NCBI GenBank assembly: GCA_937943575.1
Contig: CALEAV010000008.1
Location: 1 to 64,000 of the forward strand
Origin: an uncultured bacterium
Lineage (GTDB): Bacteria; Desulfobacterota; Desulfobaccia; Desulfobaccales; 0-14-0-80-60-11
Direction: 5' to 3'
Length of the DNA: 64,000 nt
Numbering within the stretch: the stretch's first letter is position 1; every line of letters begins with the position of its first letter. The notes below the pieces were generated by a model. It saw nothing but the letters and a program-made list of their open reading frames with translations, was not told the origin of the DNA and searched no databases. Shown in pieces: positions 5,388 to 49,515 of this stretch. Made by a program: the position numbers and the translations under genes.

Positions 5388-6681
5388 TTTCCCTCCCGAT
5401 TTAATGCCCGGATGAGGCCCAAACCGATGCCGAAGCCGACCTGGAACCCTTCAGCATGTTGTCTCCCCTTGCCTGATGGCTTCGGAGATGTTTGCCACAT
5501 TTCACCTCGCCGCACCCCAGGCCTTGTCATTGAACTCACTGGCGCAGGGCTGAAAGTCCTCAATCCATTCCGTTTTGCATTTCGCAATATTTTCCCCTGC
5601 GCCATGGTGCGGGGTGAGATACAGCAAGGGCTTTCCCAGGGCCAACTCCGCCGCCCGGCCGAAATTTGCCCCAAACTTTTTTGCAGGGCCACAAAGCAGA
5701 CCCCTTGCTCAAATCGGACATAAGTCTGCCGGAAGGATCCCGCCACATCCTTGAACTGGGTCTGCTCTTTCCTTTCGCAAGCGTCCCAGAGCTTTTGGCG
5801 GAAAGGGGCTCTCGATGCCATTGCCGCCGGTCGCCGCCGTGATATGTGCTTCCTGTCGGGGTTTGTCCGTATCATCCCTGGGCGGTCCACAACCCAGCCG
5901 ATTGGGGTTTCAACCTCGGGGAAGGGGAGGGGTCGGCGGAGGGCGCAGCCGATCCATTGACCACCCCCTCTTCAGGGAAGGTAACTTTAGGAGTCCGAAG
6001 CCCCGGAGTCAGGAGGTTTTGGCACTGACTCGGCCCGGACGGGGAAGTGTCCTGGCATTTGAAGGCACCCTGTCCTGGCGCCGGCAATTCCGAAGCACTT
6101 TCACGACCATGCGGTGTTTGGTGCTTGGCGAAATTCAGAATGTTAACGAGGTTCCGACTGTTGGCGGCATGGCGGACAAGGAAACCTCGTTCCTGGGGTT
6201 GATAAATGAGGGTGTCCGTGTCAGAAGCCGGCCCGTAATAAGGAAAATTTCAGCTGTTATCTGCTTCGGTCTGTCTTCGGGTTTCCATCTCTGTCAGCGA
6301 GACACCAAAGCCCCTTGAGAAGGAGCTGGGCAGGGTCAACGTTCTGCCAAATCTTCGTTCTTAAAAAATCCCGTCCTTTACCTCCCTGCCCTCACGAATT
6401 CTCCCCCAATCAGTGATGGTCAGTTACAAAAGAACACCCGGGGGAGAAAATTCTCCTGGAGTTTCCACAGGTAAAGAAGCAAGGATCCCGAACGCCCCGG
6501 CCACCGGACCGGATTGGCAGCCAAAGACCGGCTTCGGGTTGCCGGCCTGTTGTTCCCCCGGGTTCGCATTTGGGAGATTGGGGTGGCCTGAGTGTCGTCG
6601 GCCCGGGGTCGCTCAGGTGAAAACGGGCTGCTTTAACGGGGGGCTCCCTCTGCGTGGGAGGCCTGGGCAGGGTGAAAAGAC
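5388..6681. other. Long intergenic tract without a supportable gene
   Basis: Nearly 1.3 kb that is visibly less GC-rich than its surroundings. Several short open frames cross it on both strands (for example 5815-6318 plus and 5267-5890 minus), but none has a good ribosome site, recognisable motif or consistent codon bias, and they overlap one another. The composition could mean a decayed mobile element or an old insertion beside the tRNA gene, but I recognise no transposase motif or terminal repeats. I saw no tRNA-end duplication that would mark an integration site. Confidence 0.5.
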
Positions 6682-42371: not shown

Positions 42372-43655
42372 TCACGCCGCCAGACGCCCCCGCTCATAGA
42401 AGACCGGAGGTGGGGGCAGCCCCGCCAGGGCCTGGCGGCCGGCCCGCACCATCAGCCCGCCGATGATGAGGTTGGTCATGATCACCGCCGGGTCCGGCTG
42501 ATAGACGCAGGCTTCCCGGGTCCGCCGGGCCTCCTGCCGCTCCCGGGCGGCCACGATCTCCTGAAGCCCCAGGAGTTCTGCCGGCGTGGGGCCGCCTTCA
42601 GCCGGATGGTAGACCACCACCTGGCCCGCCTCCACCCCGGCGCCGCCGCTCACCAGGATCGTCCCCTGGCGCCGGCAGGCCTCGCTTAAGATCACCCGGG
42701 TCTCGAAATTGTCCACGCAGTCGAACACCGCGGCGTAAGGGGCGAGATCGGTGGCCGCGGTGTACGCCTCCACCCGGCCTTCGGCCTCGGCCCCGTAAAG
42801 CTCCTGGAGGCGCCGGGCCAGAGTCAGGGCCTTGCTCTGCCCCACGGCGTCATAAAAGAGGATCTGCCGGTTGAGGTTGGTGGTCTCAATGGCGTCCGGG
42901 TCCATCACCACCAAGCGGTCGAGGCCGGACCACACCAGCCCCAGGGCCACCATGTTGCCCAGCGCCCCGGCTCCGATGATCAGGAGGGGTTTCCCAGGGG
43001 CGGCGGCACGGTTCGCCGCCGGCAGCACCACAAGGGGGCCCGGCGCCGCCCGGCCCATGAGCCGGTTTTTCACCTCCTCCAGGGCCAGTCCCGCCAGGAT
43101 GAGGGCCAGGGCCGCATCTTCCGGGGCGGGACGGGGGAAGCTGAAGCCGGGCACCACCTCGGCAAGCTCCCGGGTCTCCCGGCCAGGCACACAGGTGAGA
43201 AAGCGGGCCTCCAGGGCTTCAGGCGATCCGGTTATCAGGGCCCGCACCACCGGCACCCCTGCCCGGCGCCCCGCCTCCACCAGAATCTTGGTGGCCAGAC
43301 CGTAGCGGCTTAAGTCCACCAGCACCTGGCAGCCGGCAAAGACCCGGGCCACGGCGGGGTGGGTGCACCAGCCCTCCAGATGGGCCAGGGAAAAATCCGG
43401 GTTGAGGCGGCGGGCCGCAGTAAGGAGGCGGGGTTCCAGGGCCGGCGCCACCACGGTGAGGCGGTTAAGCCCCAAGGCCGCCGCCCCCGTCACCACCAAG
43501 GCAGTCAGGAGGTCCCCCTCCCCCACCACCCCCACCCGGGCCTGAGAGAGGAGCTCCTGGCGCCAGCCGGGGATGCGCAGCTGCCGGTCCAGGCGTTCAG
43601 AGAAGCGGGTCGCTCTCCCCCCCACGGCCTGCTCATCCGGAACCGGTGCCCTCAT
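42372..43655 (-). CDS. Tandem ThiF/E1-like protein (ubiquitin-activating-enzyme-like)
   Basis: A 427-residue protein with two Rossmann ThiF-like domains. The C-terminal one (about 220-427) appears active: nucleotide loop GAGALG (228-233), Asp pair in MDPD, NLNRQ (260-264), K275, and D315 in FDCVDNFETR; C383 in EACVYQPDPAVIMTNLIIGG is the likely catalytic Cys. The two zinc CxxC pairs of MoeB are missing. The N-terminal domain (about 35-145) keeps the fold but has a degenerate loop (GEGDLL). E1 enzymes adenylate the C-terminal Gly of ubiquitin-like proteins; here the JAB, ClpX-like and Gly-Gly-ending neighbours support that. Start ATG 43655 with GGGGGGAGC. Last gene of the operon. Confidence 0.9.
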   Translation of the reverse strand: MRAPVPDEQAVGGRATRFSERLDRQLRIPGWRQELLSQARVGVVGEGDLLTALVVTGAAALGLNRLTVVAPALEPRLLTAARRLNPDFSLAHLEGWCTHPAVARVFAGCQVLVDLSRYGLATKILVEAGRRAGVPVVRALITGSPEALEARFLTCVPGRETRELAEVVPGFSFPRPAPEDAALALILAGLALEEVKNRLMGRAAPGPLVVLPAANRAAAPGKPLLIIGAGALGNMVALGLVWSGLDRLVVMDPDAIETTNLNRQILFYDAVGQSKALTLARRLQELYGAEAEGRVEAYTAATDLAPYAAVFDCVDNFETRVILSEACRRQGTILVSGGAGVEAGQVVVYHPAEGGPTPAELLGLQEIVAARERQEARRTREACVYQPDPAVIMTNLIIGGLMVRAGRQALAGLPPPPVFYERGRLAA

Positions 43656-43746
43656 TGGCTCCCCCCCCGGAGACCATGCGGCCGCGGTGTGCTTTCCACC
43701 GGTGACGTCACGGGCCAACGGCACTGTCCTCCCCGGGCCTCCCTGC

Positions 43747-44541
43747 TCACACCCGCTCCAGTTTTTCCAGGCGGTAGCGCACGGGGCTGAGCTTCTCCCG
43801 CACTTCCTCCAGGAGGGCACCTTCCTCCAGGCACTCCCCCGGGGCCCACTCCAGGATCTCCAGCTCCGCCTCCCGGTGGCTCACCTCCCGGCGGCCGGTG
43901 AGCAGGCCCTGCCTGAGGTAGTGAATCTCCTGCCGGTGCCAGCCGTCGTCCCCCACCACCAGGGCGTAGCAGAAACCGCCCAGCACCGTCTCCCACAGCC
44001 GGGCCCGGCCCACCGCCACATCGGTGACCAGGGTGACGCTGCCCCGGGAGAGGGCATTGTGGTTCAGTCCCTCCTCGGTGAGGAGGACCAGGTCCTGGAT
44101 GACCACCTCCCGCTTGGCCACCGGCCGCTTCAGGAGACTGGTGACATAATCCAGCACCACCGCCTGGTTGGCGGCGTCAATGCCGGAGAAGGCCTGCAAC
44201 TCCAGGCTGCCGTGGGAGTGCACCCAGCCGTTGACCACCAGGTGGGGCGGCAGGGCCTCCTGAAAGGCGGCGATGCGCTCCGCCCCCACCCGGGTGAACT
44301 CCGCCAGGTTGTCGTCATTGCGGGGGAGGCCGATGTCCACCACGATCTCCGGCTCCTCCCGGCGGCCCAGGGTGAAGCCGTACCACTCAAAGCTCTCCTG
44401 AAAGAGCTTTCTCACCGCCCGGTTGAGGGCAAAGGCCTTCTCCAGGGCCAGGCGGCGGATCTTCATCTCCCGGGGCAGGGGAGCGAGGGCCACCTCCTGG
44501 CTCGGCGGCCGCCGCAGCTCCTTCAGGGATTTCAGCTTCAT
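43747..44541 (-). CDS. JAB/MPN (JAMM) metalloprotease-like protein
   Basis: A 264-residue JAB-domain protein. A possible metal-site Glu (E52, in FEWYGFTLG), then H108-S-H110, and S119-x-x-D122 form a JAMM zinc site, with eight rather than seven residues between the second His and Ser. In eukaryotes and in bacterial CBASS or Bil systems such proteins cleave ubiquitin-like modifiers from targets or trim precursors. The start overlaps the upstream ClpX-like stop (ATGA), so translation is coupled. The C-terminal 100 residues are a separate domain of unknown type. It probably deconjugates or matures the modifier encoded in the same operon. Confidence 0.88.
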
Positions 44542-45641
44542 GCGAGGCGCTCCCGCACAAAGGCCTCGTCCACCACCAGGGGCCCGGTGTAGGTGCCGGG
44601 GAGGCGGAACATCTCCTCAAAAAGGATGCGGTGCAGCACGCTCACCAGCCCCCGGGCGCCGGCGCCCTCCTGTTTGGCCCGCTCCGCCACCAGGGTGAGG
44701 GCTTCATCGGTGAAGGAGAGGTCGATGTCCCAGGCCTTGAGGTCATTGATGTAGGCGAGCAGGGGGCTGTCGGCACTCTGGGTGAGGATGTTCTTCAGAT
44801 CCTCGGTGGTGAGCCCATGGAACACCACCTTCACCGGAAAGCGGGCCACCAGCTGCCGCTCCATGCCGAACTCCACCAGGTCATCCGCGGCCACCAGGTC
44901 CCGCCACTCGCCGGTGATTCTCTGCTTGGCCAGCCGCTTCTTGACGATGCTCCCCAGGGTCTCAAACACCCCCCCGGCGATGAAAAGCACATGCTTGGTG
45001 GACAGGCTCAGGCGCTCCTTCCCCATCTCGATGGTGTTGGTCACCCCCTCCACCAGCCGGAGGAGCCCCTTCTGCACCCCCTTGCCGGAGACGTCCCGGG
45101 TGGTGGTGGCCTCCGCGGCGATCTTGTCCAGCTCATCCAGATAGACGATGCCCATCTGGGCCACCAGGGGGTCCCCGCCGGCGGCGATGAGGAGGTCCAC
45201 CAGGATGTCCTGGGTGTTCTGGCCCACATAACCGGTTTCGCTGAATTTGGTGAGGTCCTCCACCACAAAGGGCACCCCCACCAACTGGGAGACGATCTCC
45301 CCGGAGTAGGTCTTGCCCACCCCGGTGGGGCCGATGATCAAGATATTGGCCTTGGGGGTGCGGGTCTGCTTCAGGGCGGTCTCCCAGTCCAGGACTCCGG
45401 CGGCCCGGGCCCCTTTGAGGGCCGCGGCCAGACGCCGGTAGTGGAAGGCGATGGCGGTGGCCAGCACCTTTTTCCCCTGCTCCTGGCCGATGACATGGCG
45501 GTCCATCCGGGCCTTGAGGCTGGCCGGGGTGTGGGTGAACTCCAGGATATGCGCCAGGGTGGCTTCGGTCTGGCGCTCCCGGAAGTCCGCCAGTTTGGCT
45601 TCCAGGCGCCGCCGCCGGGCGTCGCCGAGATGATCAATCAT
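44538..45641 (-). CDS. ClpX-like AAA+ unfoldase without zinc domain or IGF loop
   Basis: A 367-residue AAA+ protein close to ClpX: Walker A GPTGVGKT (104-111), pore loop GYVG (137-140), Walker B GIVYLDEL (164-171), Arg-finger-region [10 protein letters not shown] and sensor-2 GARGL. The N-terminal zinc-binding domain is replaced by about 35 basic/acidic residues. The region that in ClpX carries the RKH and IGF loops is shortened (between about 200-216 and 228-256), so docking to ClpP is unlikely. I therefore infer a protease-independent remodeller, perhaps acting on modified targets. ATG 45641 has AGGAG upstream; it overlaps the JAB gene by four bases. Confidence 0.92.
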
Positions 45642-45652
45642 GTGATGCACTC

Positions 45653-46072
45653 CTATATTGCTGGCTCTTCGGTCGCCTGAGCCACATATGCCTCCAGAAG
45701 GCGGCGCAGGCCGTGTCGGTCCCCGCCCTCCCCGGCGGCCCGCAGGAGCTCCAGCGCCAGCAGGGTGGCGACATGCACCCGGCTGAGCACCCTCCCGGGG
45801 AGATCAGGCCGCCGCTCATACAGCACCCGGGAGAGACGGAGCTCCTCCACCTCCCGGGCAAAGGGCAGATAGGGGTTGTCCCAGCGGGCGAGGACACTTT
45901 GGGTCTGCTCCAAGACCGGGCGGGGGAGCAGGGGAAACAGGGGCGGCTCCCAGGAGGACTTGGCCCGGGGCCGCCCCCCGGGGAGCAGCCGCTCCAGCAT
46001 CAGCTCCTCGGGCTCCAGGGGCTTCAGCAGGTCCTCCCCCGTTCGGCTTGCCAAGAGCAACCCCGCCACCAC
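45653..46072 (-). CDS. Small protein of unknown function in the Ub-like operon
   Basis: About 139 residues, with a hydrophobic N-terminal stretch ([18 protein letters not shown]), a Pro-rich middle and an acidic/basic C-terminal helix pair ([21 protein letters not shown]). I recognise no family. It lies between the E2-like gene and the ClpX-like gene, ending 11 bases before the latter's ATG. The start is uncertain: GTG 46072 has no ribosome site; GGAGGGG near 46130 would fit a CTG at 46123. It could be an adaptor for the unfoldase. Confidence 0.6.
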
Positions 46073-46136
46073 CGCAAAGGCGCCGGGCTGCCAGGGCCCG
46101 GGGCCCCGCCGGGCGGGCCGCAGGCGTCCCCTCCGA

Positions 46137-47318
46137 TCAGAAATAGCGATTTTTCACCTCCACCCGCCCGGAAAGGACCCGGGGATCCTCCGGCGGCAGG
46201 CGGTAATCGTCAAAGCTCACCAGCTGCTCCCCCCGATGGCGGTCCAGGCTGTGGTAGCCGTTGCGCCGCCGGGGGTTGTAGCCGTAATACAAGGCGGTGA
46301 GGCCCGCCTCCAGGGCCGCGATGATCTCCCGGGGGCCAGCCGCCTGGGGCACCTGATACTCCCGGGGCAGGCAGATCTCCTGCCGGGGGGCGTGGCGGCG
46401 CAGGAACGGATGTTTATACTTCTCCCACACCACCGGCCGCAGGCGCTCCCGGGTGGAGACCGCCACCCGGCAGTCCGGAAAGAGATACGGACGTCCGAAG
46501 TAATCCTGGAGGAAATATTCCCCCGTGCGTTTATAGACCCAGTAATCCCCGGCGCTGCGGGAGTCCGGGAAGAATCCGAAGCCGTCCAGCTCCAGCTCCC
46601 CCCGTTCCCGGAGATAGAGCAGCAGGGCGGTGCGGGCCAGCCGGCTCTCCTCCGGCAGGTGCCGGCACTGCGCCAGGCGCCGGGCCAGGGCGTGGCGCTC
46701 CCGCTGGAGGATGAGGGCTCTCAGGGCCTGATGCAGCCAGCGGTCCAGCTCCGTCCCCTCCACCCGGCCGCAGGGAGGCGGCGGGGCCGGCCCGGCCATA
46801 GCCTCCAGGGCCGCCAGCCCCCGGGCCAGCTCCTCGGGGCCTGCGGTCCGGCGGGCCTGCTCGTAGTAGCGGGCGGGAATCTGCAGGCGCCGGGCCAGAG
46901 AGGTGATGACCGCCTCCGGGCTCAGGCGCCCCCGGGCGGCGGCGGGGCTCAGGCGCACAAAATGGGGCAACACCTCCAGGACCAGGGGCGCCAGCCAGCC
47001 CCCGAGGACATAAGGCTCCTCCGGAGGGGCCCCTGCCTCGGCAAGCACCGCCTGCCGCACCGCCTGATATGCCTCGGGCCACAGGAGGTGGTAGCAGGCC
47101 GCCAGGGAAGGGAGGCGCACCGTGGGGACGACCTGCCCGTCATCGCCGGGTGGCAGGGTGAAGGGGAAGGCGGCGGAGTCAGCTGCAGGGGGGTGAGGGT
47201 TCAGGTCCCGGGCCACCTCAGGGTCGTAGAGCAGGGGCAGGCAGAGAAAACCGTCCGGCGTCACCACGTGGGGGCCCGGGTCCCACAGGGTCGGGAGTGA
47301 CGGGACGGCGGCCGTAAT
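46137..47318 (-). CDS. E2-like candidate of the Ub-like operon (probable ATT start)
   Basis: About 393 residues. The C-terminal domain has a beta-meander (EYFLQDYFGRPYLFPDCRVAVS), then KYKHPFLRRHAPRQEICLP, which matches the HP...ICL pattern around the catalytic Cys of ubiquitin E2 enzymes (C316), followed by a helix (REIIAALEAGLTALYYGY). A second HxxxxxGFLCLP motif occurs near the N-terminus. The middle is helical with Cys and His. An E2-like conjugating role is inferred only from motif and context. No ATG, GTG or TTG is near the N-terminus; ATT at 47318 has AGGAGG upstream and one base separates it from the preceding stop. Confidence 0.65.
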   Translation of the reverse strand: MTAAVPSLPTLWDPGPHVVTPDGFLCLPLLYDPEVARDLNPHPPAADSAAFPFTLPPGDDGQVVPTVRLPSLAACYHLLWPEAYQAVRQAVLAEAGAPPEEPYVLGGWLAPLVLEVLPHFVRLSPAAARGRLSPEAVITSLARRLQIPARYYEQARRTAGPEELARGLAALEAMAGPAPPPPCGRVEGTELDRWLHQALRALILQRERHALARRLAQCRHLPEESRLARTALLLYLRERGELELDGFGFFPDSRSAGDYWVYKRTGEYFLQDYFGRPYLFPDCRVAVSTRERLRPVVWEKYKHPFLRRHAPRQEICLPREYQVPQAAGPREIIAALEAGLTALYYGYNPRRRNGYHSLDRHRGEQLVSFDDYRLPPEDPRVLSGRVEVKNRYF

Positions 47319-47319
47319 G

Positions 47320-47685
47320 CTACCCCCCCTCCTGGGGCCGGATGGCCCGCACGGCCACATAGAAATAGCGCTCCCCGGCCTCGGTCTCCTCCAGGCTGGC
47401 GCAGGCCAGAGGCGGGCCGGACACCTCCCGGCCCCGGCAGAGCAGCTTGCCGCCCTGGAGCTGGCGGCGGATGTCCTCCAGCACCAGCTGCTCCTCGATA
47501 CTGAGATCCCGGCGCTCCAGGGCCTGCTGGCAGAGCTCCGCCAGATCGGCATGCTCATACTCCCCGGCCTCGAAGATCGCCACCAGCCCCTCGGCCGCCT
47601 GGCCGGGCAGGATTTCCAGCACCAGAGGCAGCCGCTCGGGAAGCGGCGCCTCAATCCTTTCTTCCTTGAGTTCCTGTGTGCTCAT
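47320..47685 (-). CDS. Gly-Gly-ending small protein, candidate ubiquitin-like modifier
   Basis: A 121-residue protein whose last residues are AIRPQEGG. The order of secondary elements (strand LPLVLEILPG, strand EGLVAIFEAG, long helix, strand GKLLCRGREV, strand ERYFYVAVRAIR, Gly-Gly) parallels a beta-grasp ubiquitin fold, and the segment before the Gly-Gly recalls ubiquitin's RLIFAGKQ...LHLVLRLRGG. Sequence identity is low. As first gene of an operon with E1-, JAB- and E2-like products it is the best modifier candidate. However, the Gly-Gly comes from a run of six G just before the stop, so an indel could create or destroy it. ATG 47685 has CCGGAGG-like site upstream. Confidence 0.7.
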   Translation of the reverse strand: MSTQELKEERIEAPLPERLPLVLEILPGQAAEGLVAIFEAGEYEHADLAELCQQALERRDLSIEEQLVLEDIRRQLQGGKLLCRGREVSGPPLACASLEETEAGERYFYVAVRAIRPQEGG

Positions 47686-47762
47686 GCCAGCCTCCGGGCG
47701 CCGGGCCCCCATCCCGGTTTCCCCCGGGATGATGGCTTATCTCCTGATTTTACACCTAATTT

Positions 47763-47791
47763 AGTTTAAAAGACCCCGGAGGAGCTGTCAA
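47763..47791 (-). promoter_or_regulatory. Sigma-70 promoter of the Ub-like operon
   Basis: On the minus strand a perfect TTGACA (47786-47791), 17 bases, then TAAACT (47763-47768). The predicted start is about 70 bases before the first ATG at 47685. The strong -35 and exact spacing suggest constitutive or moderate housekeeping expression. Confidence 0.65.
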
Positions 47792-47817: not shown

Positions 47818-49428
47818 TCAGGGGAGGGAGGACAGAAAGGTCAGCACCCGGGCCGCCGCGGCGCTCCCCTGGGAGACGCTCTCGGTGATGTCCTTGGGAC
47901 CCAGGCAGGTCCCGGCGAAAAAGACCCCCGGGGTGCAAGCGTCCAGGGGGGCCAGCACCGGGTCGGCCGCCTGGTAAAAGCCGGAGGGGTCCCGGGGTCC
48001 GGCCAGCTCGTCCAGCACCGGGTGCGGCGGGGGAGGGGCCAGCCCCACCGCCAGGACCGCCACATCCACCCTGAGGCGCCGGGGCCCGCCGCCGGCCAGG
48101 GGAGCCGAGATGATGGTCACCCCGGCCCCGGGGTCGGGCTCGACAGCCCCCGGCAGCCCCTGGACCAGGCGGATGCCCGCCTCCCGGACCCGGCGCAGCA
48201 GGTCTTCGCCCCCTTTGCCGGTAAGCCGCAGGTCATTGAAAAAGATGGTGATCTCCACCCCGGGGTCGTGCTCCTTGGCGATGAGGGCCTGCTTCAGGGA
48301 GGCGGCGCAGCAGATGCCGGAGCAATAGGGGAGGAAGCGCCGGTCCCGGGAGCCGGCGCACTGAATGAAGGCCAGTCGGGTCAGGGGGCGGCCGTCAGGG
48401 CCCAGCAGGGCCCCGCCGGTGGGGCCGGTGGCGCACACCAGCCGCTCGAATTCCAGGCCGGTGAGCACCCGCCGGTGGTCGCCGTAGTGCAATTCCCCCT
48501 TGAGGCGGGGGCTGAAGGGCACGGCGCCGGTGGCGATCACCACGGCCCCCACCTTCAGGCGCCGGGTGCGGGGGCGGGCCGCCAGGTCCACGGCCTGCCG
48601 CTCACAGGCCTTTTCGCACAGCCGGCAGTCAATGCAATAGTCCCGCTCCAAGGTGGCCCGCAGCGGCACCGCCTGGGCAAAGACGATGCGGATGCATTTG
48701 CGGGGGGAGAGCCCCAGGTTCCAGCGGCTGGGCAGGATGACGGGGCAGACGGCGGCGCAGGCGCCGCAGCCCACGCAGCGGCTCATGTCCACATAACGGG
48801 GCTTTTCGGTAATCTCCACCTGGAAATCCCCGGCGCGGCCGCTGATCCGTTCCAGGTCCGCCCAGGTGATGAGGTTGATGAGGGGGTGGGAGGCGGCCTC
48901 CACCAGCCGCGGCCCCAGGATGCAGATGGAGCAGTCCAGGGTGGGGAAGGTCTTGTCCAGCCGGGCCATGGTGCCGCCGATGGACAGGGCGGTATCGAAG
49001 AGGTGGACCCTGATCCCGGCCTCCGCCAGATCCAGGGCGGCCTGCACCCCGGCGATGCCGCCGCCGACCACCAGGACCTCCCGGGAGCCGACGGGGGACG
49101 GCGCCGCCGGGGGGAGGGGACGGGCCAGGGCCGCCAGCACCCGGCCCACGGCCTCCTCCAGGTCCGCGGCGCTGAGGAGATCCACCACCGGCCAGGTGGC
49201 GGCGCCGCCGATGACGGGGAGGACCTCCTGCGCCAAGGGGTGGCAGGCGCCCACCAGCACCCTCCCGGCAGCGGCGGCCTGGGATGCCAGCTCCCTCAGC
49301 CCCGCCGGGCTGCACAGAGGTGCGGAAACGGTCACCGCCGCCCCCGCCTTCTCCAGGCGCCGGGCCACGGCCGCCGCCCCGGCGGGCAGGTCCGGACAGG
49401 GGCAGAGGATGACTCCCACGGTGCCCAT
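47818..49428 (-). CDS. HdrA-like iron-sulfur flavoprotein
   Basis: A 536-residue member of the heterodisulfide reductase A/QmoA family. An N-terminal Cys/Gly segment (CPCPDLPAG...VGACHPLAQE) precedes the FAD-binding VVGGGIAGVQAALDLAE fold and the Cys-rich LDCSICILGPRL. Two [4Fe-4S] ferredoxin motifs follow: CVGCGACAAVCP and CIDCRLCEKACE. Such subunits split or combine electron pairs between ferredoxin, NADH, H2 or disulfide/sulfur partners at the cytoplasm. No HdrB, HdrC or hydrogenase gene is adjacent. CCGGAGGTGAATTT precedes ATG 49428. It is the gene upstream of the Ub-like operon on the same strand, separated by its own promoter. Confidence 0.92.
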   Translation of the reverse strand: MGTVGVILCPCPDLPAGAAAVARRLEKAGAAVTVSAPLCSPAGLRELASQAAAAGRVLVGACHPLAQEVLPVIGGAATWPVVDLLSAADLEEAVGRVLAALARPLPPAAPSPVGSREVLVVGGGIAGVQAALDLAEAGIRVHLFDTALSIGGTMARLDKTFPTLDCSICILGPRLVEAASHPLINLITWADLERISGRAGDFQVEITEKPRYVDMSRCVGCGACAAVCPVILPSRWNLGLSPRKCIRIVFAQAVPLRATLERDYCIDCRLCEKACERQAVDLAARPRTRRLKVGAVVIATGAVPFSPRLKGELHYGDHRRVLTGLEFERLVCATGPTGGALLGPDGRPLTRLAFIQCAGSRDRRFLPYCSGICCAASLKQALIAKEHDPGVEITIFFNDLRLTGKGGEDLLRRVREAGIRLVQGLPGAVEPDPGAGVTIISAPLAGGGPRRLRVDVAVLAVGLAPPPPHPVLDELAGPRDPSGFYQAADPVLAPLDACTPGVFFAGTCLGPKDITESVSQGSAAAARVLTFLSSLP

Positions 49429-49515
49429 AAATTCACCTCCGGGGCCCGGGCTCACGGGCCGCCGACATCTCACCGCCCTCCAGGCTTCCCTCCCCCGCCC
49501 CGGGGAAAAGCCCGG

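Follow-up and report, generated by a model that had tools for sequence, protein, structure and literature searches.

Six co-directional genes on the minus strand (positions 42372-47685) of a 64,000-nucleotide stretch of an uncultured Desulfobaccales genome (assembly GCA_937943575.1, contig CALEAV010000008.1, positions 1 to 64,000; in the following, the window) quite probably encode a self-contained bacterial pathway for the conjugation and deconjugation of a ubiquitin-like protein (Ubl) that is equipped with its own AAA+ motor. The gene order is Ubl candidate, E2-like protein, small conserved protein, ClpX-like AAA+ protein, JAB/JAMM metalloprotease and tandem E1-like enzyme. All six open reading frames (ORFs) are present, as an earlier note made from the sequence of the window alone had proposed, and comparison with three relatives gave dN/dS values <1 for all six genes, that is, they are under purifying selection.

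The gene set was traced in other genomes in two ways. A scan with the JAB protein as query, which covered 84,980 species genomes and detects close relatives only, revealed four loci, all in metagenome-assembled genomes of Syntrophobacterales or related deltaproteobacteria. Three of these four loci contain all six genes; the fourth (L008), on a short contig, shows five, and the E1 was not seen there. Whole-genome searches within one phylum were positive for 17 of the 29 genomes of the same class, for 2 of 26 and 22 of 56 genomes of two further classes and, once three weak matches had been set aside, for 20 of 395 genomes sampled from the phylum. Together, 42 genomes, which represent 8 families of a single, deltaproteobacterial phylum, carry the set. 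In 32 of them the six genes form one complete cluster, and most of the other clusters are interrupted by contig ends. Hence the genes do stay together in relatives, as the earlier note had anticipated, and synteny on this scale rules out a chance cluster. Gene order is usually kept (the E1 comes first in three genomes), and outside the closest relatives the E2-like proteins are 33-42% identical to the window protein. No conserved neighbours were found beyond the six genes, except for an HdrA-like gene in close relatives only; most of the gene groups returned by this comparison were ORFs within the operon that run antisense or out of frame, and these were disregarded. Since the order is kept despite this wide protein divergence and the surroundings are not shared, we regard the six genes as a functional unit. 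The patchy distribution suggests loss and transfer. Two possible origins were rejected: a phage origin, as the E2-like protein was unmatched in viral contigs and the JAB match there covered only 33 residues, and a plasmid origin, as no matches were found on plasmids.

The Ubl candidate (47320-47685, minus strand) comprises 121 amino acids from its best start, the ATG at 47685, and ends exactly at Gly-Gly (C-terminus RAIRPQEGG). The conserved part of the family closes with R.[IL][KR]PQEGG, and PQEGG is present in 43 of 43 homologues. The Gly-Gly end, which the note had taken as the mark of a modifier, is therefore invariant, and its codons (47323-47328, minus strand) represent the predicted activation and processing site. 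Only five of the 43 homologues stop there; the remaining 38 run on with a poorly conserved tail of 1 to 151 residues. In three related species a GNAT acetyltransferase in the same reading frame makes up this tail (PF00583, E 8.6e-19; L066:3787-4602, L067:10802-11611 and L068:7818-8633). Eukaryotic ubiquitin is also made as precursor fusions. Because an invariant Gly-Gly is followed by disposable sequence, sometimes by a whole enzyme, the family bears the signature of a precursor that would be cut after Gly-Gly. The conserved residues before the Gly-Gly, about 100 in number, form one stretch only, and dN/dS of the gene is about 0.17-0.23. The AlphaFold model contains beta-beta-alpha-alpha elements followed by strands, and its structural matches in VIA were mostly ubiquitin-fold proteins (ISG15, HOIL-1L, ubiquitin, SUMO, NEDD8 and MoaD), the C-terminus of ubiquitin being aligned to that of the Ubl. 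Comparison with ubiquitin sequences by hhalign gave a weak result. The modifier assignment, previously a conjecture, is thus supported by the Gly-Gly with its disposable tails, by the Ubl-GNAT fusion and by the ubiquitin-fold matches. As side observations, a GNAT relative with 42% identity (L095:509-946) adjoins another ThiF-family gene in a further genome, and one genome carries a second Ubl copy with a mere E2 remnant beside it (L134, G421:C1:87000-104000). The latter may be what is left of a duplicated cluster.

The second gene (46137-47318, minus strand; first GTG at 47267) encodes a protein of roughly 380 amino acids that is extended by helices at its N-terminus. Conservation is highest in YLFPDCRVAVST...YKHPFLrrhapgQeICL. 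The pattern HP[FL]L..Q.IC occurs in 41 of 41 homologues, and His303, Pro304, Gln313, Ile315 and Cys316 (counted from 47318) are invariant. This site resembles the E2 signature HPN...ICL, and we predict the active site in HPFLRRHAPRQEIC (46371-46412, minus strand; His303...Cys316). An AF2 model computed from five sequences (pLDDT 71) found its best VIA match in Ube2w (Z 6.0, 106 residues, 3.8 Å), and most of the top VIA rows are E2 or UEV domains. With the invariant site and these structural matches the E2 assignment of the note has gained ground: the protein is probably E2-like, and a UBC fold is supported by a model of moderate confidence. The small protein encoded next (45653-46138, minus strand) occurs at this position in nearly every locus, shows 30-68% identity and matches no Pfam family; an adaptor or E3-like role is possible. 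Together, the Ubl, the E2-like and the small protein define three families without match in Pfam or NCBIfam.

At the other end of the cluster, the E1-like enzyme (42372-43655, minus strand; ThiF match with E 4e-31) combines a degenerate N-terminal half with an active ThiF-type adenylation half, and both halves are homologous to each other (hhalign P 1.4e-5). The active half keeps the Gly-rich loop GAGALG, NLNRQ and Asp315, while the candidate catalytic residue Cys383 (42507-42509, minus strand; counted from the ATG at 43655) is invariant in 19 of 19 aligned E1s. Its best match in the PDB is yeast Uba1 (E 5e-21). The JAB/JAMM metalloprotease (43747-44541, minus strand), for which we predict both Ubl processing and deconjugation, carries the full JAMM set: Glu52, His108, His110, Ser119 and Asp122 are invariant in the aligned members. 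The Prok-JAB model was matched by 7 of 19 JAB members (best E 2.5e-4). The reading of these two genes as a tandem E1 and a JAMM protease, made from the sequence of the window, is thus supported.

The AAA+ protein (44538-45641, minus strand) is clearly related to ClpX. It matched the NCBIfam ClpX model with E 8e-77, although 100 bits below the cut-off of that model, and solved ClpX in the PDB with E 1e-68. Like ClpX, it has the AAA+ core, Walker A and B and the pore loop; by strict patterns, Walker A is found in 41 of 41 family members, Walker B in 37 and the pore loop GYVG[QR] likewise in 37. Unlike ClpX, it lacks the zinc-binding domain and the IGF loop. The N-terminal C4 domain is absent from the window protein and its aligned relatives, and the zinc pattern CS[FY]C was not found in 40 of the 41 proteins, with one match. 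The IGF loop docks ClpX to ClpP (PMC9035409). As [ILMV]GFG it is present in ClpX of E. coli and in the host's own ClpX, but in none of the 41 ClpX-like proteins, where about 15 residues are missing relative to E. coli ClpX. The family groups apart from canonical ClpX and HslU. The ClpX-type unfoldase of the earlier note keeps its motor motifs but has neither a zinc finger nor the ClpP-docking loop. The protein therefore probably acts as a dedicated, ClpP-independent unfoldase. Since no docking element for ClpP or HslV is recognizable, unfolding or complex disassembly would be likelier than degradation by ClpP, and of the fates that such tagged proteins might meet, 'remodel' is more likely than 'degrade'. 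The ClpX-like and JAB genes overlap by four bases (ATGA, 44538-44541, minus strand), and since most relatives share this overlap, it suggests that motor and protease act together. The same genome encodes a second ClpX-like paralogue (L002, G000:C12:15425-16519), distinct from the canonical ClpX (L003) and HslU (L004). Its open frame spans 584 codons and encodes an IGFG loop and a long extension at the C-terminus, but no zinc finger could be clearly made out.

Several observations weigh against a complete conjugation pathway. Three genomes of one genus lack the E1 in the cluster, where it is unlinked yet present elsewhere in the genome, and one genome (L139) has no recognizable E2 and small genes. 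The JAB spacing, HxHx8SxxD, is one residue above the usual 7. The sequence profiles of both the Ubl and the E2-like protein match no known family, profile searches of the PDB gave nothing useful for either of them, and Foldseek returned no match under E 0.001 with either model. When aligned by hhalign to eukaryotic E2 sequences, the E2-like profile was in register but weak, with 8 of 150 column-shuffled profiles scoring as high. Finally, the Ubl model has a pLDDT of 62 and reaches VIA Z scores of at most 4.2. Because of this pLDDT the fold is not secured: the beta-grasp fold proposed in the note is supported by the almost uniform ubiquitin-fold matches, but it is not settled.

Gene content, synteny, catalytic residues, the Gly-Gly with disposable tails and the missing IGF loop can all be read from the sequences, and the ubiquitin and UBC folds are backed by models of moderate confidence. 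The single reactions, what the small protein does, which proteins are tagged and what purpose the pathway serves in the cell are inferred, and we propose the following cycle. The JAB protease would trim the Ubl precursor to ...PQEGG, and the tandem E1 would adenylate this end and take the Ubl on Cys383. The E2-like protein would then take over the Ubl on Cys316 and pass it to target proteins, perhaps assisted by the small protein. The ClpX-like hexamer would grip the tagged protein and pull it apart, and the gene-coupled JAB would cut the Ubl off during unfolding and recycle it. The outcome would be Cdc48-like unfolding or complex disassembly together with Rpn11-like tag removal, without degradation by ClpP. 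We put forward tentatively, and with some doubt, that the whole works as a protease-independent 'tag, unfold, untag' machine, in which a ClpX-derived ring without ClpP docking is dedicated to Ubl-conjugates and the JAMM protease removes the Ubl, as a convergent minimal counterpart of Cdc48 plus an Rpn11-type enzyme. In the 26S proteasome (Rpn11 and the Rpt ring) and in Cdc48/p97, an AAA+ motor is paired with a JAMM deubiquitinase. This analogy concerns the way of working only; the assemblies are not homologous, there is no proteolytic chamber here, and the likeness comes from gene coupling and not from structure.

Other readings of the same genes have to be weighed. The Ubl might act as a reversible switch within a fixed protein complex: it would be conjugated to a single cognate target, such as the ClpX-like ring or the small protein, and regulate it, and cell proteins would not be tagged in general. 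Such a switch is a narrower version of the conjugation pathway and may overlap with it. It would suit a self-contained cluster with varied surroundings, the tight overlap of the ClpX-like and JAB genes may reflect a complex, and Cap2/Cap3 of CBASS, which act on the CD-NTase, provide a precedent (PMC10097602). We nevertheless consider it rather unlikely, as the cluster contains no nucleotidyltransferase or other obvious effector and a Ubl that is free and separate points to a tag that can be transferred. That the Ubl delivers proteins to a ClpX-like ring feeding ClpP or HslV, like a bacterial proteasome, appears improbable: the docking loop (PMC9035409) is missing in 41 of 41 proteins yet present in the host's own ClpX, the C-terminus is without an HslU-type tail and the JAB is the only peptidase gene in the cluster. 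What speaks for degradation is the clear ClpX homology with ATPase and pore motifs, and the host has HslU and ClpX genes of its own, so that partner proteases are probably present.

In a third reading, the Gly-Gly protein would be a sulfur carrier, adenylated and thiocarboxylated like ThiS, MoaD, CysO or Urm1, and the JAB would free the sulfur-containing product. The E1 is indeed of the ThiF/MoeB type, operons of JAB, Ubl and E1 are known in sulfur metabolism (PMC1779556, rows 4b-4e) and the hosts appear to be related to sulfate reducers. The E2-like protein, whose Cys site is invariant, and the dedicated unfoldase are nearly always present, which speaks against a sulfur carrier. In addition, the E1 has two tandem halves as in Uba1, no rhodanese match was found on it and no sulfur-metabolism neighbour is conserved, which leaves this reading very improbable.

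As a putative conjugation pathway with its own motor, the operon shares features with several known systems. Bil antiphage systems (BilABCD) have a separate Ubl, E2 and JAMM protease and an E1 with an inactive and an active adenylation half, and their Ubl precursor is trimmed by the JAMM protease (PMC11354881). The operon described here likewise has a separate Ubl, E2-like protein, JAB/JAMM protease and two-half E1. However, BilA consists of two Ubl domains (ISG15-like) whereas a single Ubl stretch is found here, Bil comes without an AAA+ unfoldase, and the small protein has no Bil counterpart. FtsH-ternary systems join Ubl, E1, E2, RING and JAB with MoxR and FtsH (Kaur et al. 2020, PMC7159879), and their JAB has been proposed to free the Ubl from a larger polypeptide (PMC7159879). 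The likeness lies in a Ubl/E1/E2/JAB set encoded with AAA+ proteins. The difference lies in the RING E3, the Ubl-E2 fusion with EAD1, MoxR, vWA, FtsH and the effector genes of those systems; RING, EAD, MoxR, vWA and FtsH were not seen as conserved neighbours of our clusters, where the AAA+ protein is ClpX-like. Five types of bacterial E1/E2/JAB operons (6a-6e, CBASS-related types included) were described by Iyer et al. 2006, none with an AAA+ gene (PMC1779556). They share E1-like, E2-like and JAB proteins with the operon; 6d and 6e also include a small beta-grasp protein, and 6d an extra helical protein. In those types, however, E1 and JAB or E2 are often fused. The E2-like, Ubl and small proteins of the operon match no Pfam family. 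CBASS combines E1 and E2 domains in one protein and has a cGAS-like enzyme (PMC10097602); in contrast to its type II Cap2/Cap3, the E2-like protein and E1 are separate genes here and no nucleotidyltransferase is conserved. In PADLOC, the E1 matched nothing beyond generic E1-E2 models and the ClpX-like protein nothing beyond weak AAA+ models, and no conserved defence neighbours were found around the clusters.

The earlier note had seen the novelty of the system in its unfoldase. This holds in part: a ClpX-like member is not found in the compared systems, but an AAA+ partner as such is not unprecedented, because FtsH-ternary systems have MoxR and FtsH (PMC7159879). Judged by gene content, the combination of Ubl, E1, E2 and JAB with an own unfolding motor would thus set the operon apart from Bil, CBASS, the FtsH-ternary systems and the Iyer types. 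Our literature search found no description of a ClpX-like member; papers on Bub and on prokaryotic RING/E1 proteins and later surveys of the Aravind group were outside its reach, and a prior description is possible there. Full cassettes of E1, E2, Ubl and deubiquitinase are few in bacteria, and the studied ones are mainly linked to immunity and have no dedicated unfoldase. A cassette with its own ClpX-derived motor would give a simple, reconstitutable system for the question of how tagging and AAA+ unfolding became coupled, which is central to ubiquitin function in eukaryotes; with the natural Ubl-GNAT precursor fusion, a substrate for the processing reaction is already at hand.

The note had further placed the unit behind its own promoter. 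TTGACA-N17-TAAACT (47763-47791, minus strand) is the only sigma-70-like site between 42000 and 48300 (0.3 expected). Two sister species retain the element TTGACA...TAAACTAAAT before the corresponding gene; both hexamers and AAAT are kept while the spacer has changed, which bears out the proposed promoter. A regulon search with the 18-bp promoter element TTTAAACTAAATTAGGTG, in which up to 3 mismatches were allowed, found one genomic occurrence. With regard to gene starts, the E1 begins at the ATG at 43655 and not at a GTG further upstream in the long ORF. The second and third genes have a conserved start position without ATG, GTG or TTG (window 47265-47318 and 46071-46138), and reading frame and conservation continue upstream of the first standard start codon; rare start codons such as ATT or CTG may be used.

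Upstream of the operon and on the same strand, the window carries an HdrA-like gene with FAD and 4Fe-4S domains (47818-49473). A minority of the clusters contain a seventh, accessory gene X of about 90-110 amino acids, often just before the E1 (L010:3132-3398, L069:7160-7483, L057 at about 5592-5858, L141, L144 and L139). It lies next to the E1 or between the E2 and small genes, and its product ends near ..LW[AG].PHG; gene X has no Pfam match and was not found in the window. In one genome, the E2-like and small genes are separated by an inserted gene whose product looks like the GxxExxY type (L071:7204-7698).

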